DNA from: Streptomyces sp. Tu6071
Lineage (GTDB): Bacteria; Actinomycetota; Actinomycetes; Streptomycetales; Streptomycetaceae
DNA: 64,000 nt
NCBI RefSeq assembly: GCF_000213055.1
Contig: NZ_CM001165.1
Span: 5,850,945 to 5,914,944, forward strand
Direction of reading: 5' to 3'
Shown here: piece by piece, positions 5,353-54,730 of the stretch
How positions within the stretch are numbered: position 1 is the first letter of the stretch
How the letters are laid out: each line of letters opens with the position of its first letter
Notes under the pieces: model-generated
What the model was told of the DNA's origin: nothing
What the model saw: only the letters and a program-made list of their open reading frames with translations
Database searches by the model: none
Position numbers and translations under genes: made by a program

Positions 5353-5356
5353 GTGG

Positions 5357-15075: not shown

Positions 15076-15873
15076 ATGAACGCTGTAGATGTGTCGTTGT
15101 TGCGGCGTGCTCGTACGGCGAAGGGCTGGACGCAGGAGCAAGTGTGCGCTCGGCTCAACGCGATCACGGGCGGAGGGACGTCCCCAACGCTCCTGAGTGC
15201 GTGGGAATCTGGGCGCAAACGAACCGGCTTACGTAACCGTGCGGCCCTGAGCAAGTTGTTCGAGGTTCCGGTGGTGCAGCTCTTCGCTCATCAAGATCGG
15301 CACGAGGCGACCACCGCGTTGGAGGTGGCAGGGACCGGCGCGGTAACCCGGGTTCTCACCCGGTACGAGGACCTGCTGAGGGCTATGACAGAGGTGGTCG
15401 TGGGGGCGCGGCGGCGCCTCGTCGTGACCGGCTCACGGTCGCGGGAGCCCGGCTACCTGCGGGCGATCGAGGACACGTTGGAGCACTTTCCAGACCTGGT
15501 GCATTACCGGGTGCTGTACGGGCCGCCGAGGCACCGCGCGCTCCATGAGCACTTGGACCGCGTGTTTCAGCTCCGTGATCCCTCCGAGCGTCGACACGGG
15601 ATCCGGACCCTGCATGTGGGGGTGGTTGACTCGCCGTCCGTGCTGGAGCGGCATTTTGTGGCTTCGGAGTCGGCGGCGGTTGTTCCCCTGCCGTCCTTTC
15701 ACGGCTTTGACGGTTTCGACTGCGGGGTCATGCTGGGGGCGGAAGCTGCCGCCGGTCTGGTGCAGCACGGGCGGGAGGCGTGCGCTGCCGCGCGAGCACT
15801 GGTATCGGCGGCGGAGGTGCGCCGTCTCCCCACGGGAAGCGGCCCGGACTTGGGGGAACGAGAGGCACTATGA
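15076..15873 (+). CDS. XRE regulator of the Mur-ligase cassette
   Basis: A 265-aa protein. The N-terminal HTH (LLRRARTAKGWTQEQVCARL, then SPTLLSAWESGRKRTGLRNR, residues 8-60) is joined to a ~190-residue effector domain with alternating strands (RRLVVTGSRSREPGYLRAIE, VHYRVLYGPPRHRALHEHLD, VVPLPSFHGFDGFDCGVMLG) that recalls PLD-like domains without catalytic HKD motifs. It heads a six-gene plus-strand run, and its stop overlaps the next start (ATGA). It is therefore the likely pathway-specific regulator; ligand unknown. Confidence 0.8.
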   Translation: MNAVDVSLLRRARTAKGWTQEQVCARLNAITGGGTSPTLLSAWESGRKRTGLRNRAALSKLFEVPVVQLFAHQDRHEATTALEVAGTGAVTRVLTRYEDLLRAMTEVVVGARRRLVVTGSRSREPGYLRAIEDTLEHFPDLVHYRVLYGPPRHRALHEHLDRVFQLRDPSERRHGIRTLHVGVVDSPSVLERHFVASESAAVVPLPSFHGFDGFDCGVMLGAEAAAGLVQHGREACAAARALVSAAEVRRLPTGSGPDLGEREAL

Positions 15874-17105
15874 GCGATGTTGTGGGACGGGTGGGGCGGC
15901 AGCGGATTGACTCGGTGGTAGGGCTGGCGCGGGACCTGGTGCGGCTGTCGAGCCGGGGTGGGATCGACGACTACGAGCGAGTTCTCTCCTGCGTGGAGGG
16001 GTGGCTACGTGTGCGAGGACTGCCGTGCCGACGGCTGCATGACACCGAGGTCGGAGATGTCGGGCTGCTCGTTGAGATCGCGGGCGGGCGCCCGGGGCCG
16101 TGGTGGACGCTGGATGCCTGTCTCGACACGGCCCCGTTCGGCGACGAGGCGGCCTGGACGTTCTCCCCGACCGCCGGGGATGTCCTAGACGGGTGGCTGC
16201 GCGGCAGAGGGGCGGCGGACAGCAAGCTCGCCGCGTCCTTGTTCTGCCACCTTGCGGAAGAAGTCCACGGTCGAGCCGCCGAGCTGGCCGGCGGGCTGAG
16301 CGTGCTCCTGGACGTGGACGAGCACACTGGCCGATTCGGCGGAGCTCGCGCGTTCCTGGCCGATGAAAGGGCGCAGACCCCGGCCGGGGTGATGATCGGC
16401 TACCCGGGGTTCGATGAGGTCGTGGTGGGCGGGCGCGGCTTGTGGCGGGCCCGCGTGACCATCCACGCGCAGGCAGGGCACTCCGGCTCCAGCAGGCAGG
16501 TCACCGGGGCCATCTCCCGCGCCGCACATTTCGTCACGCTGCTGGACGCTGAGCAGCTTCCCGGGCCCGATGAGCGGTTCCCGTTGCCCGCGCGGGCGAG
16601 CGTGACGGCGTTCTCGGGCGGGGCGGGCTTCTCCGTCGTGCCCGACCGCGTGGACCTGAACGTCGATGTCCGCCTCACTCCCGCCTTCGACGGCGAGGCC
16701 GCCGCCGCGCTCGTGACGGCGCTCGTGCGGCGCCTGGACACCGATCTTCCCGCGCCCGCGCCGACCGAGGTGCACCGCGTGGCCTGCTGGCCCCCGTTCC
16801 GGCTCTCTCCCCGAGACGAACCCGCCGCCGCCCTGCTACGCGCTGCCGCCACCCGGGGGGTACGCGTGCGGGCCAAGACGGCAGGCCCCTCCAACATCGG
16901 CAACCTCCTTGCCGGACGCGGCGTTCCGGCGACAGCCGGGTTTGGCGTCCGATATGAGGGCCTGCACGGCATCGACGAGCGAGCCCACCTCGCCGAGCTG
17001 CCCGACGTCTACGCCGTCTACCTCGACGCACTCCGTGACCTGATGGCGGCCCGCTCTGCCTCCGAGAAGGTGCCAGTTTCAGACCATGCCAGGTCAGGAA
17101 ACTGA
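15870..17105 (+). CDS. M20-family peptidase/deacylase homologue with altered metal ligands
   Basis: 411 aa from ATG 15870, coupled (ATGA) to the regulator. The M20 scaffold is clear: W..LDACLDTAP (84-90), GWLRGRGAADSKLAA with D117, DVDEHTGRFGG (148-158), the dimerisation-domain motif AGHSGSSRQVTGAI and a final GLHGIDERAHLAELPDVY. Compared with di-zinc M20 enzymes, the first ligand His of HxD is Cys84, the catalytic/ligand Glu-Glu pair is E151-H152, and the later ligand Glu is Y178. D117 and the C-terminal His persist. It may use another metal arrangement, or bind rather than hydrolyse. The cassette suggests a peptide or acyl-amino-acid substrate. Confidence 0.8.
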   Translation: MSDVVGRVGRQRIDSVVGLARDLVRLSSRGGIDDYERVLSCVEGWLRVRGLPCRRLHDTEVGDVGLLVEIAGGRPGPWWTLDACLDTAPFGDEAAWTFSPTAGDVLDGWLRGRGAADSKLAASLFCHLAEEVHGRAAELAGGLSVLLDVDEHTGRFGGARAFLADERAQTPAGVMIGYPGFDEVVVGGRGLWRARVTIHAQAGHSGSSRQVTGAISRAAHFVTLLDAEQLPGPDERFPLPARASVTAFSGGAGFSVVPDRVDLNVDVRLTPAFDGEAAAALVTALVRRLDTDLPAPAPTEVHRVACWPPFRLSPRDEPAAALLRAAATRGVRVRAKTAGPSNIGNLLAGRGVPATAGFGVRYEGLHGIDERAHLAELPDVYAVYLDALRDLMAARSASEKVPVSDHARSGN

Positions 17106-17219
17106 CCACGCAGGAAGAACTTCCGCGCCTTCTTCAGCGTGCCCGAACGCGGTGTGATGAAAGCGCCGAAAGGCCACTGCACCAAGTGGTGGCCTGCACC
17201 AGTGAATCGGGAGTTCGCC

Positions 17220-18683
17220 ATGAACAGTACCGTGATCACGCCGGGCGTCCACCTTGACCAGTCCAGGCCCATCCACTTCGTCGGCATCGGCGGTTGCTCC
17301 ATGAGCGGCCTCGCCTTGATGCTGCACCACGGAGGCCACATCGTGACGGGCTCGGACCGGGTATCCGGGCCGAACACTGAGACTGTTGCCACAGCGGGCA
17401 TCACGGTGACGATCGGACACCGGGCCGATAACGTCCCTCAAGACGCCCAGTTGGTCGTCGTGACGTCCGCCGCCGTCGACCCCGGCAACCCCGAGCTGGC
17501 TCGCGCACGCGAGACGGACGTATCGGTCGTGGACCGAGCCGCACTGTTGGGCATGATGTCGGAGGCCGCTGAACAGCGGATCGCCATCGCCGGGACGAGC
17601 GGTAAGACCACCACTACATCCTTGGTCGGCCGCATGATTCTGGCGTGCGAGCTGGACCCCACCATCGCGGTCGGCACCCGGGCCGGCGACTTCACCGACG
17701 GCGGTAACTTCCGCCTCGGGGAAGGCCCCTTCGTCACCGAGGCGTGCGAATACCACGAAGCGTTCCGATTCCTGGAGCCCGACGCGGCCGTGGTGCTGAA
17801 CGTCTACCACGATCACGGCGACTTCTTCACCGAGGGGATCAGGACCATTGAGGAGGCGTTCGCGCGGTTCGTCGCCCGCACCAGGCCCGGCGGCCTGGTG
17901 GTGGTCGGAGCGGACTGCCCGCGCGCCCGGCTTCTGGAGGTACCAGCAGCGGTCCGGAGGGTGAGTGTGGGCTTCGCCGCAGACGCCGACTACCGGATCG
18001 GTGACGTCGTCTGGAAGGCGGGCCGGGCAAGCTTCAGCATCGGCGGTCCCGGAAGGCGCCGTGTCCGCCTCGACCCGGCCCTCCCAGGCAGGCACAACAT
18101 CCTCAACGTCGCCGCCGCCTTCGCGCTGGCGAGCGAGCTGGACCTGCCGCTCGAAAAGGCGGTTCCTGCCCTCAATGGGTTCACCGGAGCCCCGCGACGC
18201 CTGGAGTACCAGGGCAACGCGGACGGCATCGCGGTCTGGGACGACCTGGCGTGCAGCACAGGCGAAGCCACCGCGACCATGGAAGCGGTCCGCGGGCTGG
18301 CGCAGGGCGGCAGGATCACGGTCGTCCTGCGCCCGAACTCCTTCAGCCGTGTGCGCGACAACTTCGCCGAGTACGCGGGCGTCTTCACCACGACCGAGCA
18401 CGTGATCGTCACCGACATCTTCCCAGGTCGCGACACTGAGACCTTCGGGCAGCATGCCCGCGACCTGGTGGCCAACATGGCCGCCAAGGGCCGCGACGTC
18501 GTGTACGTCCCGGACCTCAACGGCCGCCCCGACCGGGAGCGGATCTTCGACCTGCTGAACGCGCGGCTGGAGAGTGGCGACATCCTGGTCACGCTCGGAC
18601 CGGTGGACCTCGCGGGTCTCGCGGCCGATTACCGGCAGCGTCGGACCTCCCGGTGGTGGAATGAGGAAGATTTCACCGCATAG
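17220..18683 (+). CDS. MurC-like amide ligase (divergent Mur ligase)
   Basis: 487 aa from ATG 17220 (GGGAG upstream). It has the three Mur ligase domains: nucleotide-sugar-binding N-domain (HFVGIGGCSMSGLALML), ATPase domain with GTSGKTTTT (125-133), FVTEACEYHEAFRFLEPDAA and NVYHDHGDFF, and a C-terminal Rossmann-like domain with LRPNSFSRVRDNFAEY. The MurC signature DDYxHHPTE is replaced by DDLACSTGE (341-349), losing both His residues near the substrate site. A housekeeping MurC would keep them, so a different acceptor or amino acid is likely. Reaction class: ATP-dependent carboxylate-amine ligation. Confidence 0.85.
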   Translation: MNSTVITPGVHLDQSRPIHFVGIGGCSMSGLALMLHHGGHIVTGSDRVSGPNTETVATAGITVTIGHRADNVPQDAQLVVVTSAAVDPGNPELARARETDVSVVDRAALLGMMSEAAEQRIAIAGTSGKTTTTSLVGRMILACELDPTIAVGTRAGDFTDGGNFRLGEGPFVTEACEYHEAFRFLEPDAAVVLNVYHDHGDFFTEGIRTIEEAFARFVARTRPGGLVVVGADCPRARLLEVPAAVRRVSVGFAADADYRIGDVVWKAGRASFSIGGPGRRRVRLDPALPGRHNILNVAAAFALASELDLPLEKAVPALNGFTGAPRRLEYQGNADGIAVWDDLACSTGEATATMEAVRGLAQGGRITVVLRPNSFSRVRDNFAEYAGVFTTTEHVIVTDIFPGRDTETFGQHARDLVANMAAKGRDVVYVPDLNGRPDRERIFDLLNARLESGDILVTLGPVDLAGLAADYRQRRTSRWWNEEDFTA

Positions 18684-18714
18684 GGCACTGCCACCGAACC
18701 CAAGGGGCTCCACG

Positions 18715-20178
18715 ATGAAGCTGGCCGCACTGCTCGCCGGACACCCGCACGACCTCCTCCAGGGAGACGCCGACACCGACGTCACCGGCATCGCGACGGA
18801 CTCGCGGCAGGTACGGTCCGGCTTCCTCTTCGTGGCGGTGCCGGGACGGCGCGTGGACGGGCACGCCCACCTGGAGCAGGCCGTCGAGCAGGGCGCAGTC
18901 GCCGCGCTCGTGAGCACTACCGCGCACCCGCTTCCCTCCGCTCTCACCATCGCACGCGTGGAGAGCACCCCGGTGGCCGCATCCCTGGCGGCCTCGCGCC
19001 TCCACGGGGAGCCGGGTCGGCGGATGCGGGTGGTGTCCATCACCGGCACCAACGGAAAGACGTCCACGGCCGCGATGCTGGAGTCGGTCATCGCCGCGCT
19101 CAGTACGGCACCGGTCGGAGTGATCGGCACGGGCGGCCCGCGCGTCGACGGGATTCCCGTCCCGCTGAAAACCACCACGCCGACCACTCCGCAGGCAGTC
19201 GAACTCCAGCCGATCCTGCGGTACATGGCCGATCAGGGCGCGGGGACCGTGGTCATGGAAGCGTCGTCACTCGCGTTGTGGCAGCACCGGCTCGATCACG
19301 CCTTCACCGATATCGGCGTGTTCACGAACCTGAGCCCTGACCACCTCGACGACCACGGCACCATGGACGCCTACAAGGCGGCCAAGCTCCTGCTCTTCTC
19401 CGGGATGTCCTCCGACGCGGTGGTCAACACGGATGATCCGGTCAGTCAGGAGATCTTGGAGCGGATGCCGCGGGCGACCACCTTCGGGATGGACAAGACC
19501 GCAGACTTCACCGCACGCGCCTTCGAGGTCTCCGCCACCGGCACCCGCTTCCTCCTGGTGCACGACGGCCAGGAGTATCCCGCCCACCTGCCCATCCCGG
19601 GCCGGTTCAACGTCGCCAACGCGCTGGCTGCCGTCGCGGTCTGCCACCGGCTCGGTTACGAGACCAAGGCCGCCCTTCACGCCCTGGAGACATTGCCGCA
19701 GATTCCGGGCCGCATGGAAACGCTGCGCCGCGCCGACGGCACCAGCATCGTCGTCGACTACGCGCACTCCGCCGACTCCCTGGAGAAGACCCTGCGCACC
19801 CTGCGGGAGGTCAGCTCCGGCCGTCTCCTCACAGTCTTCGGCTGCGGCGGCGACCGCGACGCCAGCAAGCGCATCCCCATGGGCTCCCTCGCGGGCCACC
19901 TGTCCGACCACGTCGTGATCACCAGCGACAACCCACGCACCGAGGACCCCGAGACCATCATCAACGCCGTCGAACGCGGGGTGCGAACCACCGACACCCC
20001 CTACGACCGAATCACCGACCGCCGCGCGGCCATCGCCCGTGCCCTGTCCCTCGCCGAGCCCGGCGACACCGTCCTCGTCGCGGGCAAGGGCGCGGAAACC
20101 TACCAGCTCATCGGCGAAGCCGCCCTCCCCTTCGAGGACATGGCCGTCGTACGGGAGCTGACCGACACAGCGGCCTGA
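18715..20178 (+). CDS. MurE-like amide ligase
   Basis: 487 aa from ATG 18715, 31 bases after the MurC-like gene. N-domain: VTGIATDSRQVRSGFLFVAV and VDGHAHLEQAVEQGAVAALV. ATP site: GTNGKTSTAAML (111-122); TTPTTPQ; YKAAKLLLF with the position of the carbamylated Lys. C-domain: VVDYAHSADSLEKTL, FGCGGDRDASKRI and SDNPRTEDPE. The DNPR motif (405-408) is the signature of diaminopimelate-adding MurE enzymes, so a DAP-like or other dibasic substrate is plausible. It lies in a cassette lacking MurF and all lipid-stage genes, so it is unlikely to serve bulk peptidoglycan synthesis. Confidence 0.85.
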   Translation: MKLAALLAGHPHDLLQGDADTDVTGIATDSRQVRSGFLFVAVPGRRVDGHAHLEQAVEQGAVAALVSTTAHPLPSALTIARVESTPVAASLAASRLHGEPGRRMRVVSITGTNGKTSTAAMLESVIAALSTAPVGVIGTGGPRVDGIPVPLKTTTPTTPQAVELQPILRYMADQGAGTVVMEASSLALWQHRLDHAFTDIGVFTNLSPDHLDDHGTMDAYKAAKLLLFSGMSSDAVVNTDDPVSQEILERMPRATTFGMDKTADFTARAFEVSATGTRFLLVHDGQEYPAHLPIPGRFNVANALAAVAVCHRLGYETKAALHALETLPQIPGRMETLRRADGTSIVVDYAHSADSLEKTLRTLREVSSGRLLTVFGCGGDRDASKRIPMGSLAGHLSDHVVITSDNPRTEDPETIINAVERGVRTTDTPYDRITDRRAAIARALSLAEPGDTVLVAGKGAETYQLIGEAALPFEDMAVVRELTDTAA

Positions 20179-20244
20179 CTGGGTCCGGGCGTCCGCCCGC
20201 TCGCGGTCAGGACGCCCCACCTACTCGCCCCGAAGGGGGCCGCC

Positions 20245-21600
20245 ATGCAGATCAAGCACGCCCACGTCCTGATCCTGGGCCTCGGCATCAGCGGCGAATC
20301 CGCCGCCCTCCTGTGCGCAGAACGCGGAGCCCACGTCACCGTCCACGACCAGCGCGAGGCCGGCACCTTCACCGATGCCCGCGCGCGCCTGTCCGCCCAC
20401 CCGGTTGACTACCAGCTCGGTGTGACCGCGCCCGACCCCGCCGACTACCACCTCGTCGTCCGAAGCCCCGGCATACCTGCCCACCACCCGGCCCTCAGCC
20501 GCGCCGCCGAGGCCCAGGTCCCGGTCTGGAGCGAGATCGAACTCGCCCACCAGCTCACGCCCTGCCCGATCGTCGCGGTCACCGGGACCAACGGCAAGGG
20601 AACGACCACCGCGCTCATCGCGGACATGTTCCACGCCTGCGGCATCACTGCCCACCGCGCCGGGAACATGGGCATCCCGCTCGCCCCCGCGCTCTCCACC
20701 GCCAAACCCGCCGATGTCCTCGTCCTGGAGGTCTCCGCCGCACAGTTGGAAAACGTGCACGCCTTCGCCCCGAGCGTCGCGGTGATCACCAACATCCAGC
20801 CCGAACACCGCAACCTGTACTCCTGGCAGACCTACCACCGCATCAAAGCGGAGATCTTGCGCCGCCACACCGACGCGAGCGCCACCGTCGTCTCCTACGA
20901 CGACCCCACAGCCCGGGGCCTGGTCACCGCCGTCCCCGGGCGCCTCCTCTACACGAGCGCCCTCGGCCCCCTGCCCGCAAGCCTCGACGGCGTGTACGTC
21001 GAAAACGGGTACGTCCTCGCGCGTGAAGACGGTCGTGAACGGGCCCTGCTCACCGTGGCCGACCTCTCGGCCCGCGGTGTCCTGGCCAACGTCGTCTCGG
21101 CAGCAGCCGCAGTGATTCTGTGGGGGGTCGGTGACCGGGCCATCGCCGAAGCCGCGCGCGCCTACCGGGGCAAGGAACACGTCCTGGAGTTCGTCGCCGA
21201 GCGCTCGGGCATCGCCTTCTACAACGACGCCAAGGCCACCAACCCGTACTCGACGCTCCACGCCGTCAGCGCGTTCGAGGACCGTCCTCTCGTCCTGATC
21301 GCGGGGGGCAAGGACACGAAGGACGCCGACTTCACCGCGCTCGCGGCCCCCACCATGCGCCGCGTCCGCCACCTCGTCCTCTTCGGCGAGACCGCCGGAG
21401 CTATCCACCGTGCCCTCACCGACGGCGGCCTCGACCTGCCCACCACCGTCACCGAGGACTTCACGGACGCCACCGCCACCGCGCGCACGCTGGCCCGGCC
21501 CGGCGACGCGGTCCTGTTCAGCCCCGGCACCCACACCTGGGACATGACCCCCGACTACCTCACCCGCGGCGTCCTCTTCAAGCAGCTCGTCCTCAGCTGA
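20245..21600 (+). CDS. MurD-like amide ligase
   Basis: 451 aa. N-domain Rossmann motif HVLILGLGISGESAALLCAE; ATP site GTNGKGTTT (114-122), with the FolC-like extra Gly; substrate motif NDAKATNPYSTLHAVSAF and LIAGGKDTKDADF typical of MurD. The usual MurD SPA(C/S)ASFD segment reads LFSPGTHTWDMTPDYLTRGV, changed in the residues preceding the Trp-Asp. With the MurC-like and MurE-like neighbours it completes three successive ATP-dependent ligases in the order C-E-D. These probably add three residues to a carboxylate scaffold. Confidence 0.85.
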   Translation: MQIKHAHVLILGLGISGESAALLCAERGAHVTVHDQREAGTFTDARARLSAHPVDYQLGVTAPDPADYHLVVRSPGIPAHHPALSRAAEAQVPVWSEIELAHQLTPCPIVAVTGTNGKGTTTALIADMFHACGITAHRAGNMGIPLAPALSTAKPADVLVLEVSAAQLENVHAFAPSVAVITNIQPEHRNLYSWQTYHRIKAEILRRHTDASATVVSYDDPTARGLVTAVPGRLLYTSALGPLPASLDGVYVENGYVLAREDGRERALLTVADLSARGVLANVVSAAAAVILWGVGDRAIAEAARAYRGKEHVLEFVAERSGIAFYNDAKATNPYSTLHAVSAFEDRPLVLIAGGKDTKDADFTALAAPTMRRVRHLVLFGETAGAIHRALTDGGLDLPTTVTEDFTDATATARTLARPGDAVLFSPGTHTWDMTPDYLTRGVLFKQLVLS

Positions 21601-21648
21601 TTGCCCCGCGCCCTCGCGGTCTCACATCCACCGATCCGGGAGACACCC

Positions 21649-22812
21649 ATGCCTAAGAGCATTCCCCTCGCGTCCCGCTTCTACGAGCCGGTCGTCGACC
21701 AGCACGAGTCCTGGATCGCGGTCAACCCGCGCCAGGGCTGCCCGAAGAACTGCGGGTACTGCTACCTCAAGGACCGGGGCCAGACCCTCGTCAAGCCCGT
21801 CGAGGTGGCCACCCCCAAGGACACGGTCGCCCAGCTCCTCGCGAGCCCGTACTACCACCGCGACGCCGTCCTCGCCCTCTACACCTGCACCGACGCCCTC
21901 GCCACCCCGCCCAACCGCGCCCACCTCATCAAGCTGCTCCACGCCCTGGCCGCCGAGTGCATCCCCAACCCGGTCTGCCTCATCACCAAGTGCGCCTTCA
22001 CCCCCGAAGTCCTCACCTGCCTGGAGACCGTTCAGCGCAAGGGACTTCGGGTGATCGTCTACCTCTCGTACTCCGGCCTCGGCCCCGACGTCGAACAGGG
22101 CATCGACCACGACGCGCTCCGCGCCAACTTCCCCGCCCTGCACCACATCGGCACTCCCGTCATCCACTACTGGCGCCCGTTCCTCCCCACCAACTCCACC
22201 CCCGAGGCCGTCACCCGAGTTCTCGACCACGTCACCCAGTACGCCCGGTGCAGCGTCGCCATCGGCCTCAAGGTCAAGCCCGGCGGACACGAACTCCTCA
22301 CCGGCCTGTGGCCCGAACTCGCCGACAACGCCAAGGACGACGTCGAACGCGCCTCCTCCGTCTGGCCCGAGCAGATGCGCGCCATGCTCCCCCACCTGCC
22401 CGACACCTACGGCGACTACCCCATCTACGAAACCAACACCTGCGCCCTCTCTTACGTCCTCGACCAGCCCGACCGCTTCCACATCCTCGGCTCGACGGTG
22501 TGCGAGAAGCAGAACCACTGCCCCGCTGCCCAACGCGCCCTCTGCGAGAGGGGTGAGTCAGCACCGCCCGTCAACGAGAACACGATCACCGCCCATCTCG
22601 AAAAGCTGGGCGTCACTCAGGTGCGGTGGAGCTGGGACCCGGCCTCGAAGACCCTGACCTTCCTCGCCCCGATCCCCACCGCCCCCGCCAACAACCTCGC
22701 CCAGACCCTGCGCATACGGGTCCGGACGGCGGCCAACGCGAGTGATCACTACTGGACCGGGAAGGTCACCGGCAGCGTCCCGTTGATGATCCCGGACAAC
22801 CGCGACATCTAG
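21649..22812 (+). CDS. Radical SAM protein of the Mur-ligase cassette
   Basis: 387 aa from ATG 21649 with GGGAG seven bases upstream. The cluster motif is C-x3-C-x2-C (C31, C35, C38, in NPRQGCPKNCGYCYLKDRG), followed by a TIM-barrel pattern (LALYTCTDALATPPNRAHLI, NPVCLITKCAFTPEVLTCL, GLRVIVYLSYSGLGPDVEQG, PVIHYWRPFLPTNSTPEAVT). Near the C-terminus VCEKQNHCPAAQRALCERG has three further cysteines that could bind an auxiliary cluster. Best overall resemblance is to SPL-like radical SAM proteins. It should modify the peptide-like product or its precursor by radical chemistry; the reaction is unknown. Confidence 0.85.
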   Translation: MPKSIPLASRFYEPVVDQHESWIAVNPRQGCPKNCGYCYLKDRGQTLVKPVEVATPKDTVAQLLASPYYHRDAVLALYTCTDALATPPNRAHLIKLLHALAAECIPNPVCLITKCAFTPEVLTCLETVQRKGLRVIVYLSYSGLGPDVEQGIDHDALRANFPALHHIGTPVIHYWRPFLPTNSTPEAVTRVLDHVTQYARCSVAIGLKVKPGGHELLTGLWPELADNAKDDVERASSVWPEQMRAMLPHLPDTYGDYPIYETNTCALSYVLDQPDRFHILGSTVCEKQNHCPAAQRALCERGESAPPVNENTITAHLEKLGVTQVRWSWDPASKTLTFLAPIPTAPANNLAQTLRIRVRTAANASDHYWTGKVTGSVPLMIPDNRDI

Positions 22813-32370: not shown

Positions 32371-32987
32371 CCTCCCCCGACGGCGAAGCCGCCACCGGAC
32401 AGGACACGGCCACCGGCCGAGCAAGCTATACCGTACGACCGTCCTACGGCCGGACGAACGGAGCCCCCGCCCAGGAGGGCGGGGGCGGCCCGTCGGGTTC
32501 CCGGACGAGGGCGCCCGGGAACCCGACGGACAGGGACCGGCACCAGGGGGCGCCGGTCCCGGAAACGGACAAGCCCGCCACGCCCCCGCGCGCTCCGCGC
32601 CGCCGCCCCCGCAACCACGCCCCGCGCCAGCGCACCCGCAAAGTCACCACCCGCCTCGCCGAGACCGAGCACGAAGAGATCCTCGCCGCCGCACGCCGCC
32701 GCGCCGTAACCACCGCGCGCTTCCTCGCCGCCGCCGGACTCGCCGCCGCGCGAGGCACCACCGCCCTCGAACCCCACGAGAAGCGCGACACGGTCATCGA
32801 CGAGCTGGCGCTCACGCGCGCCCAGCTCGCCCGCGTCGGCAACAACCTCAACCAGCTCACGCGCGCCACGCACCTCGGCATCGCGCCGCACCCGGACGAC
32901 CTCGCGCACACCCTCGACCGCCTCCGCCGCGTCCTCGCCTCGATCGACGACGCGGCGACCGCTCTCGCGAAGCGCAGGTCGGCATGA
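32367..32987 (+). CDS. mobC: MobC-type relaxosome protein
   Basis: 206 aa from GTG 32367. A disordered basic N-terminus is followed by a ribbon-helix-helix-like part (TTRLAETEHEEILAAARRRA, VTTARFLAAAGLAAARGTTA) and the MobC signature ELALTRAQLARVGNNLNQLT with RATHLGIAPHPDDL. MobC proteins bind oriT and assist nicking by the relaxase. Its stop overlaps the relaxase start (ATGA). Confidence 0.85.
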   Translation: MTSPDGEAATGQDTATGRASYTVRPSYGRTNGAPAQEGGGGPSGSRTRAPGNPTDRDRHQGAPVPETDKPATPPRAPRRRPRNHAPRQRTRKVTTRLAETEHEEILAAARRRAVTTARFLAAAGLAAARGTTALEPHEKRDTVIDELALTRAQLARVGNNLNQLTRATHLGIAPHPDDLAHTLDRLRRVLASIDDAATALAKRRSA

Positions 32988-34648
32988 ACCCGAACATCAC
33001 CCGGGGCAGCCGCATCCACGGCCTCCTCGCCTACCTCTACGGGCCCGGCCGCCACAACGAACACACCGACCCCCACCTCGTCGGCTCCTGGGACGGCTTC
33101 GCCCCCGACCCCGGCTGCAACCCCAACGCCACCCTCAAGCACCTCGCGAACACCCTCGACCTGCGCCCCTCCCAGCTCGGCGACGCCCTGCACAAGCGCC
33201 ACGTGTGGCACTGCTCGGTCCGCGCCGCACCCGAGGATCGCGAACTCACCGATAAAGAATGGGACATGATCGCCCGCCGAGTCCTTCACGCCGTCGGCGT
33301 CAGCAGCGAAGGAGACGACGACGGCTGCCGATGGGTAGCCGTCCGCCACGCCCGAGACCACATCCACATCGCCGCCACCCTCGTACGCGGCGACCTGCGC
33401 AAGGTCTACCCCCGCGACGACTACCCCAAGGCCCAGGCCGCCTGCCGCAAACTCGAAGCCGAACTCGGCCTGCGCCGCCTCAACCCCGGAGACCGCACGG
33501 CGGCGAAGCGCGCGAGCACGGGGGAGCGGCGCAAGGCCGAGCGCCTGAACCTGCCCGCACTCCCCAGCGACACCCTCCGCACCGCCGTACGCCAGGCCCT
33601 CGCCGCCGCGGGCACCGAAGAGGACTTCTTCGACCGCCTCGCCGCCGCCCGCATCCTCGTCAGGCACAAGAAGGGGCCCAGCGGCGACGTCCTCGGCTAC
33701 TCCGTCGCCCTCCCCGACGACGACACCCCGATCTGGTACGCGGGCAGCACCCTCGCCCCCGACCTCTCCCTCCCCAAGATCCGCCAGGCCCTCCCGGACA
33801 CCACCGCCCCTCTGAGCGTCCAGGCAGCCCGCGCCAGCCGCCCAGAGGCAGCCCGCAGGCACGCAACCTCCCGCCTCGACCGCGCTCAGCACGCCCTTGC
33901 ACGCGGCGCAGACGACGCCGCGGACGACCTCGCCGGGACCGGAGCAGTCCTCGACGCACTCGCCGCCACCGCGAACGATCCGACCCGCACCGAAATACTC
34001 CAGGCAGCAAGGGCGTTCGAGCGAGCAACACGAAGCCACGTCCGCGCCGAGAACGCCGACCTGCGCGCGCTGCGCGCCGCAGCCCGAGAGATCATCCACG
34101 CCGGAACCCCCCGCCGCGACGACGGAGCCGCCGCAGCAGCAATCCTCACCGCCCTCCTCCTCACCGTCGCCGCCGCCGCGCGGTGGCACGCGGCGCGCGG
34201 GCATGCCCAGCAGGCCGCCGCCGCCCGCTCGACAGCCCAACACCTGCGCTCCGCCTACCGCATGGCCGCCGCTTCCCCCATGGCCACCCTCCGGGGCCGC
34301 GCGGCCCACCTTCCCGCCGAGCAACGCGCCCGCCTCGACGCTGTCGTCGCCACCACACCGGCGGGCACCGGACATGGAACGCGCTCCACGCCGCCGATGG
34401 ACGCCCTCACCGCCACCCTCGCCGAGGCGCAGGAGGCTGGCTACGACCCCGAGACCCTGCTGCGGGAGGCGTCCGACGCGCGTGAACTGCGTACTGCCGT
34501 GAGCGTCGAAGACGTCCTCGTGTGGCGCATACGCCGTCTCGCCCGCCTCCCCTCTCCTGACGGCCCAAACGACGACGCGGGCCGGGCCGCGAACCGCCCG
34601 CGCACAGCAAAGGAGCAGGCGGCCAGCCGCCCCAACCCGACGCGGTAA
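32984..34648 (+). CDS. Relaxase/mobilisation nuclease
   Basis: 554 aa from ATG 32984. N-terminal relaxase domain: GSRIHGLLAYLYGPGRHNEH, HVWHCSVRAAPEDRELTDKE, and the metal-binding His cluster WVAVRHARDHIHIAATLVRG (H..DHIHI). The remaining ~300 residues are helical and basic, with one hydrophobic stretch (AAAILTALLLTVAAAARWHA). It would nick oriT and pilot the strand to the coupling protein at 50.3-52.2 kb. MobC and a palindromic region lie directly upstream. Confidence 0.88.
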   Translation: MNPNITRGSRIHGLLAYLYGPGRHNEHTDPHLVGSWDGFAPDPGCNPNATLKHLANTLDLRPSQLGDALHKRHVWHCSVRAAPEDRELTDKEWDMIARRVLHAVGVSSEGDDDGCRWVAVRHARDHIHIAATLVRGDLRKVYPRDDYPKAQAACRKLEAELGLRRLNPGDRTAAKRASTGERRKAERLNLPALPSDTLRTAVRQALAAAGTEEDFFDRLAAARILVRHKKGPSGDVLGYSVALPDDDTPIWYAGSTLAPDLSLPKIRQALPDTTAPLSVQAARASRPEAARRHATSRLDRAQHALARGADDAADDLAGTGAVLDALAATANDPTRTEILQAARAFERATRSHVRAENADLRALRAAAREIIHAGTPRRDDGAAAAAILTALLLTVAAAARWHAARGHAQQAAAARSTAQHLRSAYRMAAASPMATLRGRAAHLPAEQRARLDAVVATTPAGTGHGTRSTPPMDALTATLAEAQEAGYDPETLLREASDARELRTAVSVEDVLVWRIRRLARLPSPDGPNDDAGRAANRPRTAKEQAASRPNPTR

Positions 34649-40156: not shown

Positions 40157-42607
40157 TCACTCGGACTCCTCCGCACGGCGGCGTGCGGGGATGCCGAGGT
40201 GGACGGCCGGTCGCTGGGCTCGGCGTTGGGTCTCGTCGCGCTTCGCGCGGAGGAAGGTGAGGGTGAGGTCGGTGCCCTCGATCTCACCGATCCAGCCTTC
40301 GGCCTCGGCCTGCGTCCTGCGTTGCAGGAGGTCGGCTTCGAGCTCGGAGAGCCGGGCGAGCATCTTGGGATTGACGTGGAGCATCGGGCAGCGGATGCAG
40401 GCGTGTTCGTGCTGGCAGGGGGTGCCGTATGGGCGTCCGCAGGAGCCGAGCTCGACCTTGCGGCGGTCGAAGTGCTCCTCGAACTCGGTCCACTCCTGCT
40501 CGGTGGCGTCCCGGTACTCCTCCGAGGGCCGGACCTGGCGCCTCTTGTGGAGGTGGGCCTGGTAATGGCGGATCACGTCCTCGTCGAAGACGGCGACATA
40601 GCCGCGGGTGGTCTGGATGCTGAGGTGACCCAGCAGCGCGGCGCCGATATGGATGGGCAGGCCACTGTTGACCAGCTCGGTGGCGAAGATCCTCCGGAAG
40701 TCGTGCGGGGTGAACTTCAGCCCGCGGAAGCCAGGGTGGGTCTCGGCCAGGTCCTCACAGCGTCGGCTGATCATCTTCTGGATGGTGCCGGGGTTGAAGA
40801 TCTTCGATCCGATCGCTCCGTTCTGGCGCTGGAAGAGGAACGGCATCGGCGCACTCCAGACCTTGTCGTGCGGGTCGTAGCGGCTGACCAGCGGAATCGG
40901 CCTTCCTCGCCGGCCATGGCGCCGGATGATCGAGGCGATGACGTGGAACAGCTCGGCCGACATCGGGATGACGCGCTCGCGGTCGGTCTTGGACGGTTCG
41001 ATGACGAGCAGGGCGATGACCTCGCCGTTCGCGCGCTGATACTGGCGGATGCTGAGGTGGGTCAGCTCGCACAGCTCCTCGATGCGGACTCCGGAATGCC
41101 GCAAGGTCTCCACTGCCGCCCAGTCCCAGAAGGCAGCCTCCTCCTCCGTGCCGATATGCCTCAGCTCACCGGAGTCCAGGTCCAGCACACGGGTGGGAAC
41201 GGCGTCGCCGTGCCGGAGCCTCTTCTGGTCCGATTCGCTGATCACCCGGCGGTAGGCGTTGCCAGCGTATGTGAACTCCTCCCCGTCGGCGGCCTGGTCG
41301 GCGCGTTCGAGCAGGAGCCGGGCATGGTCGTAGCGGGACTCGACGTGCTCGACCAGGACGGGCAAGAGCGGCTGGCGCTGCCGGGTGCGGTCCGCGGAGC
41401 GTTCGGTCCCCTTCCGCCGGCGGACGCCCAGACCGTGGAATTCACCAGGTGGGACGGGACACGGCGCGACCCAGGCTGCCCAGCGTTCGGGTTCAGCAGC
41501 AGCCCAGGTGTGCAGGTCGTAGTAGAAGCTGCGGACCGAGATGACGATGTCGTCCTGGCCCCGTCGGTGGGTGCCGTCGTCCTTGAGACGGATCGTCTCG
41601 CGCCAGCGCGTATAGAGGTCCGGTGCGATCCGAAGGCCCTGCTGGCCGGGGTTGAGCTGCTCGATCTTCACCCAGAAGTGCTTGACCAGCAGGAGCGCGA
41701 GCTGCTTCAGGCTGGAGTAATCGAGATCCGCTCGGCGCCGGCCGAAGTAGTCGATCAGCAGGCCGCGGACGGCCTGGTCACGGATCCCGTACTGATCGAC
41801 GAGCTCCTCGATGGTCCGCTGGCCGCGCATCATCGCCGCCCGCATAGTCGTCGGCGTGGAGGCCGGGAACCGCCCCATCGTGATCAGGGCCGTCCACATC
41901 CCGTGCCCGAACAGGCGGTTTGAGGCCGGTTGCCCGGGCTGGAGGCGGCAGCGGGCCAGCCGGTTGTCGTGCGCGTACTGGAGGATCGACTCCGGCGTGA
42001 CGTCGGCCAGCGCGACGCCTTGGTAGGTCAGGAGCGTGCACATGTCGAGCACTGCCTCCCGCTGGTGCTTGAGCCGCAGCTCCTGTGCGGCGATGTGCTC
42101 CTCGAAGGTGACCAGCAGCGGGTCGTTCTGCGCGGAGATGAACAAGGGCGTGAAGTTGTTCAGCTGGTTTTGCCGGAAGGCGAGCATCGTGGGCTGGACG
42201 ACGCGAAGGCAGAACAGCGTGCGGACCCCCGGGGTGACCGCGAGGCCGGTCGTCCGGCGGGCACCCAGACTGTTCGCCTTGATCAGCCCCTTGCCCAGAG
42301 GGCTGGCGTCCCACCGGTCCTGCCAGGTGTGCCCCGGGTGGGTGGACAGGTACTGAAGGATGCCGCGGGTGGCCTGGGCGCGCTGGTGCCGGGTAACGGT
42401 GGAAGCGTCTTCCCAGACGTCGAAGGCCAGCTTGGAGATGTGGTTGATCGACGCTGCAGACAGTTCTCCGTGCGGTCGCGGCGGCGGCTCCGAGACCGCA
42501 GGCTGCGGCTTCATCGGGCCGCCCACGAACCTGCTGGGAAAAGTGAGCCCCTCCACGATGGGCCCGTGACGGCGGCTGACACCGGTGGTCGTGCTGGACC
42601 TAGCCAC
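40157..42607 (-). CDS. TnpB-like large tyrosine recombinase
   Basis: About 816 aa from GTG 42607, placed by AAGGTGG six bases upstream and overlap with the TnpA-like stop. The catalytic domain is at residues ~480-700: first Arg in LRHSGVRIEELCELTHLSIR, FTPHDFRRIFATELVNSG (HxxR), LLGHLSIQTTRGYVAVFDED (His and nucleophile Tyr). The C-terminal tail CGRPYGTPCQHEHACIRCPM, then RLSELEADLLQRRTQAEAEG, is the Cys-rich tail and coiled coil of Tn554 TnpB-type proteins. It works with the smaller recombinase to excise and insert the transposon. Confidence 0.85.
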   Translation of the reverse strand: MARSSTTTGVSRRHGPIVEGLTFPSRFVGGPMKPQPAVSEPPPRPHGELSAASINHISKLAFDVWEDASTVTRHQRAQATRGILQYLSTHPGHTWQDRWDASPLGKGLIKANSLGARRTTGLAVTPGVRTLFCLRVVQPTMLAFRQNQLNNFTPLFISAQNDPLLVTFEEHIAAQELRLKHQREAVLDMCTLLTYQGVALADVTPESILQYAHDNRLARCRLQPGQPASNRLFGHGMWTALITMGRFPASTPTTMRAAMMRGQRTIEELVDQYGIRDQAVRGLLIDYFGRRRADLDYSSLKQLALLLVKHFWVKIEQLNPGQQGLRIAPDLYTRWRETIRLKDDGTHRRGQDDIVISVRSFYYDLHTWAAAEPERWAAWVAPCPVPPGEFHGLGVRRRKGTERSADRTRQRQPLLPVLVEHVESRYDHARLLLERADQAADGEEFTYAGNAYRRVISESDQKRLRHGDAVPTRVLDLDSGELRHIGTEEEAAFWDWAAVETLRHSGVRIEELCELTHLSIRQYQRANGEVIALLVIEPSKTDRERVIPMSAELFHVIASIIRRHGRRGRPIPLVSRYDPHDKVWSAPMPFLFQRQNGAIGSKIFNPGTIQKMISRRCEDLAETHPGFRGLKFTPHDFRRIFATELVNSGLPIHIGAALLGHLSIQTTRGYVAVFDEDVIRHYQAHLHKRRQVRPSEEYRDATEQEWTEFEEHFDRRKVELGSCGRPYGTPCQHEHACIRCPMLHVNPKMLARLSELEADLLQRRTQAEAEGWIGEIEGTDLTLTFLRAKRDETQRRAQRPAVHLGIPARRRAEESE

Positions 42608-50325: not shown

Positions 50326-52153
50326 TCATGAGCACGCTCCGAAGTCGTCCTGGGTGAGCTTGGCGAGGGCCCGGTCAGTGATGGATGCGGTCGCGGCGTC
50401 CGAGGCGGGCCCGAGGGTCTTGGCCGAGGGCTCCGCGTACCAGGGCTTGAGATCGATGAGCGCGATGCGCGTACCGGTGGCCAGAACCAGCGCCTTGCCC
50501 TTGGGGAGGGCGCGGATCTGGTCCGGGGGGAGGATGCGCTCGGTGCGCAAGCTCACCGAGGTTGACGTGCCGCTCTCGGAGCGCGAGACGGAGGTCGTCT
50601 GCACTTCGTGCTCGCCGATGGCCCGCGAGAGCTGGTCCGCGAAGTCGATGTCGTCGATGCCGGAGCCGACCAGCTTGATCGTCGCGGCCGACCAGAGGGC
50701 GTCCATACCGTTGTCGCCCCACACGCGTTTCCCCTGCTTGTAGCTCTGCAAGATCGTGATGGGGAGTACGCCTCGGCTGCCCAAGTGCGAGTAGAGATCG
50801 GGGAGATCGCTGATGCGGCAGACGTTCGCGGCTTCGTCGAGTACGCACAGGGCGGGCGGGTCGAGCCTGCCTCCGCTGCGCTCGGCGACGGCGACGGCCG
50901 CGCGCATCACCGAGTCGGCGGCGGCGGCGATGATCGCCGCCGCGCTCCCGCCCCCGTCCTTGGAGAGCAGGAAGAGGGTGTCCCGGGACTGGGCGAAGTC
51001 GAACGGCCGGAACTCGGGCAGTTTTGCCGAGCGGGTCACCCACGCGGCGATCTCCGGTTCGAGGAGGCAGCTCGCGTACTGACGGGACGTCTCGTAGATC
51101 CCGTCCCGGGTCTCGACGGCACCGGAGACGGTGCCCTGGAGCTGAGCGGCCACGGCGTGGTGGCCGGCGTCGGCCAGCAGGTCGACGGGGGTGCGGTCCG
51201 AGGGCGAGGCGAGCCAGGCGAGGACATCGGTCACGGGCCGTCCGGCGGAGGCGGCGGCGAGGAAGAGCGCCGCCAAGGTGTTGCTCGCGGCGGTCGACCA
51301 GAAGTCGTTGCTGTTGTTCTCGTCCACCGACGCGGCCACGAAGTGCCCCGCCAAGCGCTTCGCGCCCGCCAGATCATGAGCGGAATCGAGGATGTCCCAC
51401 CACATCCGCCGGGGGTAGTGCGCGATCTGCTGGGGATCGAGCGTCCACACGGTCCCCACCGCAGCCCGCGCGTCGAACGTCGTGGTGAAGGCATCGCCGC
51501 CCGCCTTGTTCGAGGTGAGGACCACCGGCCCGGGGGCATCCAGCATCGCGGGGATCGCCAAGCCCGTCGTCTTGCCGGAGCGCGGAGCCATGATTGCGAC
51601 GATCACGTCCTCCCAGCTCGCGCGCACCTCGGCGCGGCCCAGGACACCGAGACGGACGCCCCGGTCCGCGGCAGGTACCTCTTTTCCAGCTCCGGTCCTT
51701 CAGGCTCGGGCGGAGCGCGATCGCCCGCCGCGCGATCGCCTTGCCCGTGAGGGCGGCCACGTCCTTGCGCGAGGCCATCCCCTGGCGGCGACCGGAGGCG
51801 AAGCGCGCCCAGAGGAGGGCGGCGAGCCCGGCGAGAGCGACGGTGAGAACGGCGGGCACGATCCGGACGCCGACCAGGAGCGCGAGCGGAGGCAGCCGCG
51901 GCCAGAGGACGTCAGGGTGGAGCGCGGCCTCCACGGGGGCGAAGGGCGACCAACCACGCTGCCCAAGCGCGAGGTTGACGGCGTTCCCCACGAGGTAGGC
52001 GAAGGTGCCGTACGTGAGGCCGGCGCCGACGGCGCCGAGCAGCGTGACAAGAGCTGCGTCGGTGCCGGTGGCGGAGGTGGGCGGGCGAGGGGTGCGCAAA
52101 CGTTTCTCCAGGTGGGCTGGCGACGGGGGCGTGCTGCCTGCTGCGGTCTGCAC
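50326..52153 (-). pseudogene. VirD4/TraG-type coupling protein with one frameshift
   Basis: The N-terminal part (start near GTG 52153) has two membrane helices, LLGAVGAGLTYGTFAYLVGN and VGVRIVPAVLTVALAGLAAL, and a linker to RPSLKDRSWK. One extra A in the AAAA run near 51681 shifts the frame; the C-terminal part reads EVPAADRGVRLGVLGRAEVR, Walker A IMAPRSGKTTGLAIPAMLDA, Walker B PPALCVLDEAANVCRISDLP and ITILQSYKQGKRVWGDNGMD. Repaired length is about 608 aa. It would link the relaxosome to the secretion channel. Either inactive or affected by a base-calling error. Confidence 0.85.
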
Positions 52154-52223: not shown

Positions 52224-53483
52224 CTACTGCGCAGGCTCGGGTTCGACGTGGAGCACGAGCGCGGCTTCTGCCGCGTCCCGTGCGGTGACGGCGTCGGTGA
52301 GCGTGGGCCCCGAGGTGATGAGGTAGCCGATGCGCGCCTCGTCGAGGGAACCGTTCGGGGGGAGCGCGACCCGGTCTCCGGCGTCACGCAGCCAGCCCCA
52401 CTCGCCAAGGCGGCCCGCACCGCTGCCCCTGGGAGGAAGGGCGTTGAAACGCCGCTCGGTGAGGGTGCCGGAGGTCTTGGGGTAGAGGAGGCGTACGGCC
52501 GCCGCACCGTGGCGGGTCGGCATGAGGTCGGGCGTCATGTCCGCCGCCACCGAGGCGGCAATGCCCGGGAGGTCAAGGCCAGTCGCCCGGCACACCAGGC
52601 GTCCGATCCAGTCGCCGCCGATACGTGCGTTCACCTCGATGATGCGCGGCCCGTTCTTCGTGACGCGCATCTCGACGTGCGAGATCCCGTCCGTCACACC
52701 GAGCGCCGCGAGGGCCTGCCGGGCGACCGGGGAGACGAGGGGAAGCAGCGAATCGTCGCGCTCCACGGTGTGGCCGACCTCTTCGAAGAAGGGCGCGAAC
52801 GAGACCTCCTTGCGAGTGACGGCGAGAGCAACGGTCTCGCCCGCGAAGGTCATGCACTCCACCGAGATCTCCGGCCCGTCCAGGTACTCCTCGACGAGAA
52901 CGCCGTGCCCTTCGGGGCCCTGCTCCCCGGCTCCCGCATTCGCGAACTCCCATGCCTCGGCCAGCGCTTCGGGCCGGGAGGCCTTGATCACGCCGATGCT
53001 CGCGGCGTGGGAGGCCGGCTTCAAGACGACGGGGTAGCCGATGGTGGCGGCGGCCTGGGCCGCCTCGTGCACCGACTGGACACGCACCGACCGGGCCGAG
53101 GGCACTCCGGCCTCGGCGAACAGGCGCCGGGTGGTTCCCTTGTCCCGGCAGGCGAGCATCGCCTCGACGGAGTTGCCGCGCAGCCCGAGCCGTTGGGTGA
53201 GGGTGGCGGCGGGGACGAGAGCGTATTCGTCCCACGTCAGCACACCACCGATCTCATGACGTGCGGCAATGGCCAGACCGGCGGCGACCACGGCGTCGGC
53301 ATCACGCGGGTCGGCGACCTCGTGGTCGACGACGAGGTCGCCGACCAGCCCGGCAGGAGGCGCGGCGTCGATGACGACGAGTTCATGCTCGGCGGCGGCC
53401 GACTCCCAGCAGTAGCCACGGTATGTCTCATCCGTCCCGCCCACGATCACGAGGACGGGCAGAGCGGAGGAAGAGAAGGGCAT
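52224..53483 (-). CDS. ATP-grasp carboxylate-amine ligase
   Basis: 419 aa from ATG 53483 with GGAG seven bases upstream. N-domain VLVIVGGTDETYRGYCWESA; ATP-grasp core GYPVVLKPASHAASIGVIKA, HGVLVEEYLDGPEISVECMT, metal-binding HVEMRVTKNGPRIIEVNARI with E and N ligands, and GLDLPGIAASVAADM. It resembles single-domain L-amino-acid ligases and BtrJ-like enzymes making amides or dipeptides from free acids. The adjacent MFS gene suggests export of the product. Confidence 0.85.
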   Translation of the reverse strand: MPFSSSALPVLVIVGGTDETYRGYCWESAAAEHELVVIDAAPPAGLVGDLVVDHEVADPRDADAVVAAGLAIAARHEIGGVLTWDEYALVPAATLTQRLGLRGNSVEAMLACRDKGTTRRLFAEAGVPSARSVRVQSVHEAAQAAATIGYPVVLKPASHAASIGVIKASRPEALAEAWEFANAGAGEQGPEGHGVLVEEYLDGPEISVECMTFAGETVALAVTRKEVSFAPFFEEVGHTVERDDSLLPLVSPVARQALAALGVTDGISHVEMRVTKNGPRIIEVNARIGGDWIGRLVCRATGLDLPGIAASVAADMTPDLMPTRHGAAAVRLLYPKTSGTLTERRFNALPPRGSGAGRLGEWGWLRDAGDRVALPPNGSLDEARIGYLITSGPTLTDAVTARDAAEAALVLHVEPEPAQ

Positions 53484-53518: not shown

Positions 53519-54730
53519 TCAGAGCGCGGTGGTAGGGGCGTCGCTCGTGCGTAGCCGCCACAGCGCGCCCCCGAGCACGAGGCCCTGGACGAGAGAGCAG
53601 ACGGCCACCACGGTCCCCAGGTGAGAGGACGGGACCGCTCCGACGACGAGGCCGGCCACGGGGAGGGGCACGAGGACGCAGATGATCGACGCGGAGAGGG
53701 TCGACGCGAAACCCGAGGCCGGGATGAGCCGAGCGCGAAGGGTCCGGAGCACCACGGTCAGGCCGCCCTCGGCGGCCATCATCACCGCCACCGCCCCCGC
53801 GTAGGACGCGAAGTCCGGGGCCACGGCGACGGCGAAGCAGCCGGTGGTGCAGAGCCCGGCCGAGGCAGCTCCCACAGGCCATATCCCCCAGCGGGTGATG
53901 AGCCGCTGAGCAGCCCAGACGACGCCGAGCGAGCCGAGTGCCGCCAGCGTCCACACGAGACCGAGGTGCGCGGCCGACCCGTCGAAGCGCTCGACGACCA
54001 CGATCGGCGCGCCGGCCTGCACGAGCCCGGTCGCGGCATTCGAGGCCGCCAGGCCGCCGACGAGCCACAGCAAAGCGGGTATCGAGCACAAGGTCCGCCA
54101 GCCGTTTCGCAGCCCGCCTCCAGCGCGATGAGGCGCGGTCAATGCTTCCGTCTGCTTCGGCGTGAGGCAGCTCGTCGCGAGTGCAAGAGCGGTGACGCTC
54201 AGGAGGAGAGGCACCGGTCCCGCGAGGAGGAGCAGCCCACCGAGAGCCGGCCCCGCCAGACCTGCCCCCATGTCGATCCCGGTGAGACCCGCCTGCACCC
54301 GGTGCGGGACGGACGCGTGGCGCGCCGCCTCCGCGCCGAGCGCTTCCGAGGCCACGTACCCGATCTCCGCGAGCAATCCGCTGAGCGCGCCGAGGACGAG
54401 CACCGTCGCCGTACGGCCTCGGTCTTCGTGCACACCGAGGAGGACGGCCGCAGCGCCGCACAAGCAACCGGCCCGCACCAAATTCCCCCAGCGAAGAATC
54501 CGCGCGGGGCCGTACCGGTCCGCGAGGCCGCCCGCAATTCCGAAGGCCCCGATCCGGGGCGTCCACTCCACGGCGAAGACGAGCCCGGTGAGCGCGGGCG
54601 AGCCCGTCGTGAGCAGGACCAGCAGCGGGATCGCGTACGTGATGAGCGCACTCGCCAGGGCGTCCGACCCCCGCACCGCGTACAGCCTCGGACGGGAAAG
54701 GGAGGTGAGAGCGACGGTCACCGCACACAT
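53519..54730 (-). CDS. MFS transporter, probable exporter
   Basis: 403 aa with about 12 hydrophobic helices (for example ASALITYAIPLLVLLTTGSP, TATVLVLGALSGLLAEIGYV, GPVPLLLSVTALALATSCLT, SASIICVLVPLPVAGLVVGA). GGLADRYGPARILRWGN is the MFS loop 2-3 signature (G-x-x-(A)D-R-x-G-x-x). It is 35 bases upstream of the ATP-grasp gene on the same strand and overlaps the preceding gene by 13 bases, so the three are one operon. Confidence 0.85.
   Translation of the reverse strand: MCAVTVALTSLSRPRLYAVRGSDALASALITYAIPLLVLLTTGSPALTGLVFAVEWTPRIGAFGIAGGLADRYGPARILRWGNLVRAGCLCGAAAVLLGVHEDRGRTATVLVLGALSGLLAEIGYVASEALGAEAARHASVPHRVQAGLTGIDMGAGLAGPALGGLLLLAGPVPLLLSVTALALATSCLTPKQTEALTAPHRAGGGLRNGWRTLCSIPALLWLVGGLAASNAATGLVQAGAPIVVVERFDGSAAHLGLVWTLAALGSLGVVWAAQRLITRWGIWPVGAASAGLCTTGCFAVAVAPDFASYAGAVAVMMAAEGGLTVVLRTLRARLIPASGFASTLSASIICVLVPLPVAGLVVGAVPSSHLGTVVAVCSLVQGLVLGGALWRLRTSDAPTTAL

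Follow-up and report, generated by a model that had tools for sequence, protein, structure and literature searches.

Mur ligases are textbook single-purpose enzymes, and in the octosyl-acid nucleoside pathway to polyoxin the enolpyruvyl group is attached by a MurA-like enzyme. The radical S-adenosylmethionine (SAM) enzyme PolH of this pathway cyclises 3'-enolpyruvyl-UMP, according to PMC5365060. We analysed a locus of Streptomyces sp. Tu6071 (7.5 Mb genome) in which Mur-type ligases and a radical SAM enzyme are encoded side by side; searches of an open-licence library listed no paper on such a MurC-E-D-radical SAM cassette. The window, i.e., the whole 64,000-nucleotide stretch analysed (5.85–5.91 Mb of contig 1), carries six plus-strand open reading frames (ORFs) at positions 15076–22812, encoding an XRE regulator, an M20 protein, MurC-, MurE- and MurD-like ligases and the radical SAM enzyme. 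We estimate a probability of roughly 0.55 that the core of this locus is a four-gene biosynthetic operon, murC-murE-murD-radical SAM, built from peptidoglycan enzymes and neofunctionalised as an assembly line for UDP-sugar-linked peptides. The points in its favor are the separate clades of the ligases, the retention of a housekeeping set by the host, the swap of MurC contacts, the C-E-D gene order, the neighbours of the radical SAM relatives, and an alanine racemase next to the related trio of Streptomyces genome G454.

The housekeeping murE, murF and murD genes of the host lie at 6.07 Mb, whereas its murC maps to 1.46 Mb, and its own MurC, MurE and MurD proteins are 35%, 41% and 34% identical to the cassette copies. 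Among the best 120 of 3310 MurC matches and the best 120 of 1376 MurD matches in the protein database, a score gap lies behind P0251 for MurC (377 versus 283 bits) and behind P0133 for MurD (387 versus 303 bits). Identities range from 44 to 93% above this gap and, among the 120 listed, from 32 to 40% (MurC) and 33 to 43% (MurD) below it. Sequences above the gap were treated as cassette rows, and every third listed outside relative was included in the trees (37 of 109 MurC rows and 36 of 107 MurD rows); row P0250 is a fragment that lacks domain 1. In the MurC tree, the 14 cassette rows form one clade with 100/100 support on a branch of 0.9, which midpoint rooting places beside 16 outside MurCs (one of them named, from Clostridium sp.) and away from 29 actinobacterial ones. 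The MurD and MurE clades rest on quick trees. A first MurD tree had the long-branch outsider P0164 inside the cassette clade; with the three unreliable rows P0164, L094 and P0122 left out, the clade of 14 rows reached a Shimodaira–Hasegawa-like approximate likelihood ratio (SH-aLRT) support of 100. The MurE cassette clade, with three cassette rows and no outside rows, likewise had an SH-aLRT of 100. The preliminary description of this locus had held that its idea of a new pathway would fall if the ligases grouped inside the housekeeping clades; all three fall outside them. Together with the residues described below, the trees led us to reject a housekeeping origin of the trio, and by their sequences the cassette ligases are a lineage separate from housekeeping MurC/D/E. 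An Mpl-type recycling ligase was also considered and rejected, since the score for that family was weak (129 bits against a cut-off of 389).

The MurC-like ligase carries the strongest changes. Its TIGR01082 score lies narrowly under the 335.1-bit cut-off for the UDP-N-acetylmuramate (UDP-MurNAc):L-Ala ligase. All 14 cassette rows retain nine residues with catalytic roles that we in part presume (K129, E174, E177, H199, N296, R326, R327, D341 and R377). In the same 14 rows (13 distinct sequences), Y343 is replaced by Leu or Ile, H345 by Cys and H373 by Asn; the housekeeping MurC rows have these residues in 66, 66 and 65 of 66 cases. An alignment with E. coli 2f00 and an offset of 6, which puts all five named HiMurC residues in place, equates the three positions with HiMurC Y346, H348 and H376, which PMC3060825 reports among five residues that contact the amino acid to be added. 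As for the other two contacts, R380 is kept, and HiMurC R377 corresponds to Ser in all 14 rows, at a position that is variable in housekeeping MurCs too. With domain borders set by hand, we counted per domain the near-invariant columns in which over half of the cassette rows differ: UDP-sugar domain, 0 of 16; ATP domain, 3 of 28; C-terminal domain, 11 of 24. The excess in the last over the other two has a Fisher p of 0.0003 (the columns not being independent). Overall, 14 of 68 such columns are changed in the cassette clade versus 4 of 85 and 5 of 66 at other deep MurC splits. As judged from sequence, the enzyme thus keeps most catalytic residues and the UDP-sugar domain, and the three contact replacements across the clade support a non-housekeeping ligation.

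The MurE-like ligase scores 474 bits for PRK00139.1-4 (cut-off 373) and keeps the DNPR motif, of the diaminopimelate (DAP) type, in all three rows. In these rows, SSH is changed to SSL or SSM and GKGHE to GKGAE or GKGSE, the window having SSL and GKGAE. By domain, 1 of 6, 3 of 29 and 0 of 17 near-invariant columns are changed in the MurE-like protein and 0 of 5, 1 of 20 and 1 of 14 in the MurD-like one. Of the 15 rows of the latter, 14 have Val in the R313 column, all 15 have Glu for D187 and another residue for C429, and 10 keep S431, which is Thr in the window, whose protein reads SPGTHT where the housekeeping motif is SPACAS. Since the MurE- and MurD-like changes are few, strong remodelling is confined to MurC.

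Six same-strand genes with short gaps or overlaps had been described, and the ORFs were confirmed on the plus strand (Table 1), with intergenic distances of -4, 114, 31, 66 and 48 nt in order. Five of the six proteins have Pfam matches, the radical SAM protein being the exception. A genome-wide scan for Mur_ligase_M found nine places, three of them in the cassette, whose best family scores were murC, murE and murD, not murF; no MurF-like ligase is therefore present among the cassette genes. A scan of the same genome for the 5-enolpyruvylshikimate-3-phosphate (EPSP) synthase fold (MurA/AroA) found five places, none inside the window. These results bear out the reported lack of MurA and MurF; MurB, MurG, MraY, non-ribosomal peptide synthetase (NRPS) and lipid-stage genes, the rest of that statement, were not searched one by one.

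Table 1. Positions of the cassette genes and of further genes in the window (position 1 is the first letter of the window).
Feature	Position	Strand	Evidence and remarks
XRE/HTH_3 regulator	15076..15873	+	Pfam HTH_3; front pair with M20
M20 metallo-hydrolase	15870..17105	+	PF01546 65 bits, PF07687 47.5 bits; 4-nt ATGA overlap with XRE gene
MurC-like ligase	17220..18683	+	TIGR01082 324.9 bits; incoming-amino-acid contacts replaced (L343, C345, N373)
MurE-like ligase	18715..20178	+	TIGR01085 461 bits (cut-off 257); alignment, tree
MurD-like ligase	20245..21600	+	TIGR01087 327 bits (cut-off 212); cassette clade in trees
Radical SAM enzyme	21649..22812	+	CX3CX2C, AlphaFold2 model, fold matches
Relaxase	32984..34648	+	
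Large integrase-family protein	40157..42607	-	
Type IV secretion system coupling protein	50326..51627	-	
ATP-grasp ligase-like protein	52224..53483	-	among conjugation-type genes
Neighbour of ATP-grasp ligase-like protein	53519..54676		membrane-bound in appearance (by eye)

Comparison with other loci showed that the conserved unit is smaller than the six-gene cassette first proposed. Streptomyces sp. SID11385 (L009) carries murC-murE-murD-radical SAM in the same order, with 92, 92, 88 and 94% identity and without XRE and M20, and G454 carries the MurC-E-D trio in the same order with 50, 54 and 49% identity. The full six-gene order is absent from every other locus read, and a conserved six-gene unit is ruled out by the four-gene core of SID11385 together with the recurrence of XRE-M20 ahead of other genes. 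Conservation of gene order thus holds for MurC-E-D (three of three loci, the window included) and for the radical SAM gene (two of three), and the conserved unit comprises three to four genes, murC-murE-murD with or without the radical SAM gene. Chance or decay is an unlikely explanation, since the four genes are kept at 88–94% in SID11385 and the trio at 49–54% in G454. On the 3' side of the G454 trio lie a protein with an alanine racemase score of 258 bits (cut-off 168) and a phosphoenolpyruvate (PEP)-synthase-like protein.

Cassette-clade MurC and MurD are found on contigs of equal length in four further cases, including Kineosporia sp. NBRC 101677 and Kitasatospora sp. NPDC093550, and Kitasatospora sp. 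NPDC059577 has both along with a radical SAM protein of 59% identity, physical linkage not being seen. In overlapping draws of genomes, each with the host counted, MurD at E<=1e-80 occurred twice among 392 genomes from the genus and once among 394 from the class; for MurC at E<=1e-88 there was one such genome among 394 from the family and one among 396 from the phylum. The cassette ligase clade is rare and its distribution is very sparse. A MurD-like relative of 93% identity, P0122 from Streptomyces sp. DT18, has a C-terminal end that does not align with the family. Phage cargo was rejected as an origin: the radical SAM protein had no match in 50,697 phage records, and viral contigs held no relative of it or of MurD.

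The XRE-M20 pair at the front has a history of its own. The best PDB match of the M20 protein is DapE (7uoi, E 9e-16), every listed NCBIfam match is far below its cut-off, and by sequence the protein is distant from DapE/ArgE. Relatives of 49–71% identity (E<=1e-60) occur in nine plasmid records, of which seven were read in context (L059 and L061–L066; two further S. clavuligerus records were left out). An XRE relative lies directly 5' of M20 in all seven, with 60–65% identity in six; the hosts are Streptomyces plasmids and one Streptosporangium plasmid. In the latter (L065, about 5230–7172), XRE and M20 each match in two pieces (48 and 38% for XRE), and both genes may be broken. The genes 3' of the pair differ: annotated lasso-type genes in three of seven contexts (L062–L064), a dehydroquinate-synthase/flavoprotein set in L061, and an oxidoreductase/methyltransferase set in L065. 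In L066, the gene at the corresponding position shares 32% identity with the asparagine-synthase-like protein of L062, and lasso-type genes probably lie downstream there too. In L059, the pair lies ~5 kb from a GalU-radical SAM-glycosyltransferase cassette, in the opposite orientation. XRE-M20 is probably a separately travelling front end, borrowed here and presumably regulatory, and its presence suggests that the genes behind it are a biosynthetic cassette.

The last gene product belongs to the radical SAM superfamily on the basis of its CX3CX2C motif and the core fold of its AlphaFold2 model (predicted local distance difference test score 94.4), which matches radical SAM folds in structure comparison. 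NCBIfam radical SAM matches were weak only. In an alignment of 61 of the 120 listed matches, the motif cysteines C31, C35 and C38 are invariant, as are four further ones, C265, C285, C291 and C299. Plasmid relatives lie directly 3' of a MurA homologue in 8 of 14 records and of a GalU-type gene in 4 of 14, and this suggests a UDP-sugar-type substrate. Since the relatives adjoin MurA-like and GalU-type genes, the enzyme would be at least as likely to act on the sugar or on the enolpyruvyl moiety as to carry out the late peptide modification proposed earlier. Within the order, matches were found in 14 of 293 genomes, and the 13 besides the host have only 24–31% identity. Six of 11 distant loci inspected have exonuclease, AAA-kinase and aldo/keto reductase neighbours and give no clue to the substrate.

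Several of these neighbourhoods recur as sets. The plasmid records L024, L025, L027 and L042–L046 share a class II aldolase, a MurA homologue and the radical SAM gene, with a hexapeptide-transferase-like protein and a glycosyltransferase of family GT4 in seven of the eight. Another set (L026, L038, L039 and L040) consists of a GalU-type nucleotidyltransferase, the radical SAM protein, a glycosyltransferase and a HAD hydrolase, preceded in L026 and L038 by dCTP-deaminase-like, cytidine-deaminase-like and methyltransferase genes; it looks like an undescribed sugar-nucleotide pathway. Distant relatives with the four extra cysteines adjoin a small AAA-kinase (L050, L051, L052, L054, L055, L056 and L047). 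The first six, from the order search, also have the exonuclease and the aldo/keto reductase, and the kinase neighbour is shared with the Nostoc plasmid L047.

In the proposed route, a UDP-sugar acid would be supplied by housekeeping MurA/MurB or a modified version of them. At each ligase, ATP would phosphorylate the carboxylate of the UDP-linked sugar acid and one amino acid would be joined. The MurC-like enzyme, with its contact change seen in the sequence, would add a residue other than L-Ala, the MurD-like enzyme a second residue, and the MurE-like enzyme a DAP-like third residue, the arginine of DNPR being kept. Judging by its neighbours, the radical SAM enzyme may rearrange or crosslink the UDP-sugar, its enolpyruvyl or lactyl arm, or the peptide, before or after ligation. 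The product is likely a nucleotide resembling a muramyl peptide, or the peptide set free from it, and could serve as an antimetabolite or signal. The pathway interpretation of the preliminary description survives in part: trees and residues upheld the divergence of the ligases, a dedicated pathway is probably correct, and the unity of the six genes was lost. Support is good for the divergence of the ligases and for a dedicated role. More tentatively, at somewhat less than even odds, we advance the idea of an undescribed actinobacterial natural-product class in which a neofunctionalised MurC-E-D relay builds a peptide on a UDP-sugar carboxylate without ribosome or NRPS, and a radical SAM enzyme with a second Fe-S cluster remodels the sugar or enolpyruvyl arm. 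Under this idea, the radical SAM family would edit UDP-sugars in general and be combined with MurA, GalU or Mur-ligase modules carried by plasmids and integrative elements.

A number of observations weigh against the operon reading. The MurE- and MurD-like proteins score above the curated cut-offs of ordinary MurE and MurD and DNPR is kept, so ordinary peptidoglycan chemistry may account for some of the chain. In the MurE-like protein, R86, one of six near-invariant UDP-domain columns, is replaced in two of three rows, and the MurC of the window has one changed near-invariant UDP-domain column, L56 to Val, although 7 of the 14 rows have Leu there. Only 2 of the 14 cassette MurC rows retain H127 next to the P-loop, the other 12 having a replacement, and the His matching H345, here Cys, is assigned to triphosphate binding in Mpl (PMC3060825); the handling of ATP may therefore have shifted as well, and the enzyme is not certain to be active. 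No transporter is encoded among the six genes, no MurA-like gene lies in the window, no radical SAM gene was found beside the G454 trio in the 44 kb read, and the MurA and GalU neighbourhoods represent few independent lineages (five records being of the S. anthocyanicus kind).

An alternative cell-wall set, which would make a variant UDP-MurNAc-tripeptide with Gly, Ser or a D-residue for L-Ala and feed it to MurF/MraY/MurG for self-resistance or a developmental wall change, is unlikely, though the strongest of the rivals. The family-level MurE and MurD scores, the retained DNPR motif and the alanine racemase adjoining the G454 trio all fit it, and replacement of L-Ala by Gly or L-Ser is reported as very rare (PMC10745416). 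However, the cassette genes include no MurF-like ligase, the three amino-acid contacts are replaced in every MurC row, the radical SAM gene would have no role, and the distribution is very sparse.

The window also contains the relaxase, the coupling protein and the integrase-family protein, and the cassette likely adjoins an integrative conjugative element; the ATP-grasp ligase-like protein and its neighbour are listed in Table 1. This setting favors an account in which trio and radical SAM gene are two unrelated pieces of cargo, joined by mobile-element turnover and sharing no pathway, as do the G454 trio without a radical SAM gene, the lack of any trio gene within the 6–8 kb flanks of the radical SAM relative on the 14 plasmid records, and a transposase-like gene directly 3' of the radical SAM gene in SID11385 (by eye). 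We consider this account improbable, because the two parts lie on the same strand 48 nt apart and remain together at 88–94% identity in SID11385, a Kitasatospora genome (NPDC059577) has cassette-clade MurC and MurD as well as a radical SAM relative, albeit with linkage not seen, and the repeated MurA neighbours of the radical SAM relatives follow the same pathway logic. That these are accessory peptidoglycan genes which have decayed or fallen silent and now serve no function, as the mobile setting, the changes near the MurC P-loop and the unaligned end of the DT18 MurD relative might hint, is very improbable given the open frames, the coding composition, the mostly kept catalytic residues and the conservation between strains.

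If the operon reading is correct, a clade with most catalytic residues retained and the L-Ala contacts swapped, encoded in an operon away from the host mur genes, would show peptidoglycan machinery becoming a peptide assembly line. The MurC signature L/I-x-C plus N (343, 345, 373), the MurC-E-D order or the 3+4-Cys radical SAM protein would then provide handles for genome mining, with compounds that may mimic cell-wall precursors as the target.

Among described systems, the likeness to PolH lies in the chemistry proposed here, in which a radical SAM enzyme would act on an enolpyruvyl nucleotide, as PolH does. The architecture differs: the PolH motif starts at C225 (PMC5365060), and that of the cassette enzyme at C31, with four extra cysteines. 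It thus does not support PolH/NikJ orthology, and PolH represents a likeness, not membership. Unlike the PolH/NikJ setting, the window has no MurA-like gene, and no PolH/NikJ structure is among the fold matches listed for the model, which proves nothing either way. Spore photoproduct lyase and other radical SAM folds are 12–13% identical to the cassette enzyme, which has a C-terminal region with four invariant cysteines, and the shared core says little on function. The pseudomurein ligases pMurC/D/E are likewise Mur-fold ligases outside bacterial peptidoglycan; the MurC-like protein reaches only 52 of the 560 bits required for pMurC and 20 of the 600 required for pMurE. Like housekeeping MurC/D/E, the cassette enzymes are three-domain ATP-dependent ligases with the P-loop lysine and most catalytic residues kept (in MurC, H127 is mostly and H345 always replaced), and, as in housekeeping MurC, the near-invariant UDP-domain columns are kept in most cassette rows. 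Unlike the housekeeping set, they form separate clades, replace the MurC contacts in 14 of 14 rows, are ordered C-E-D without a MurF-like gene, and have a radical SAM gene beside them in two of three loci.

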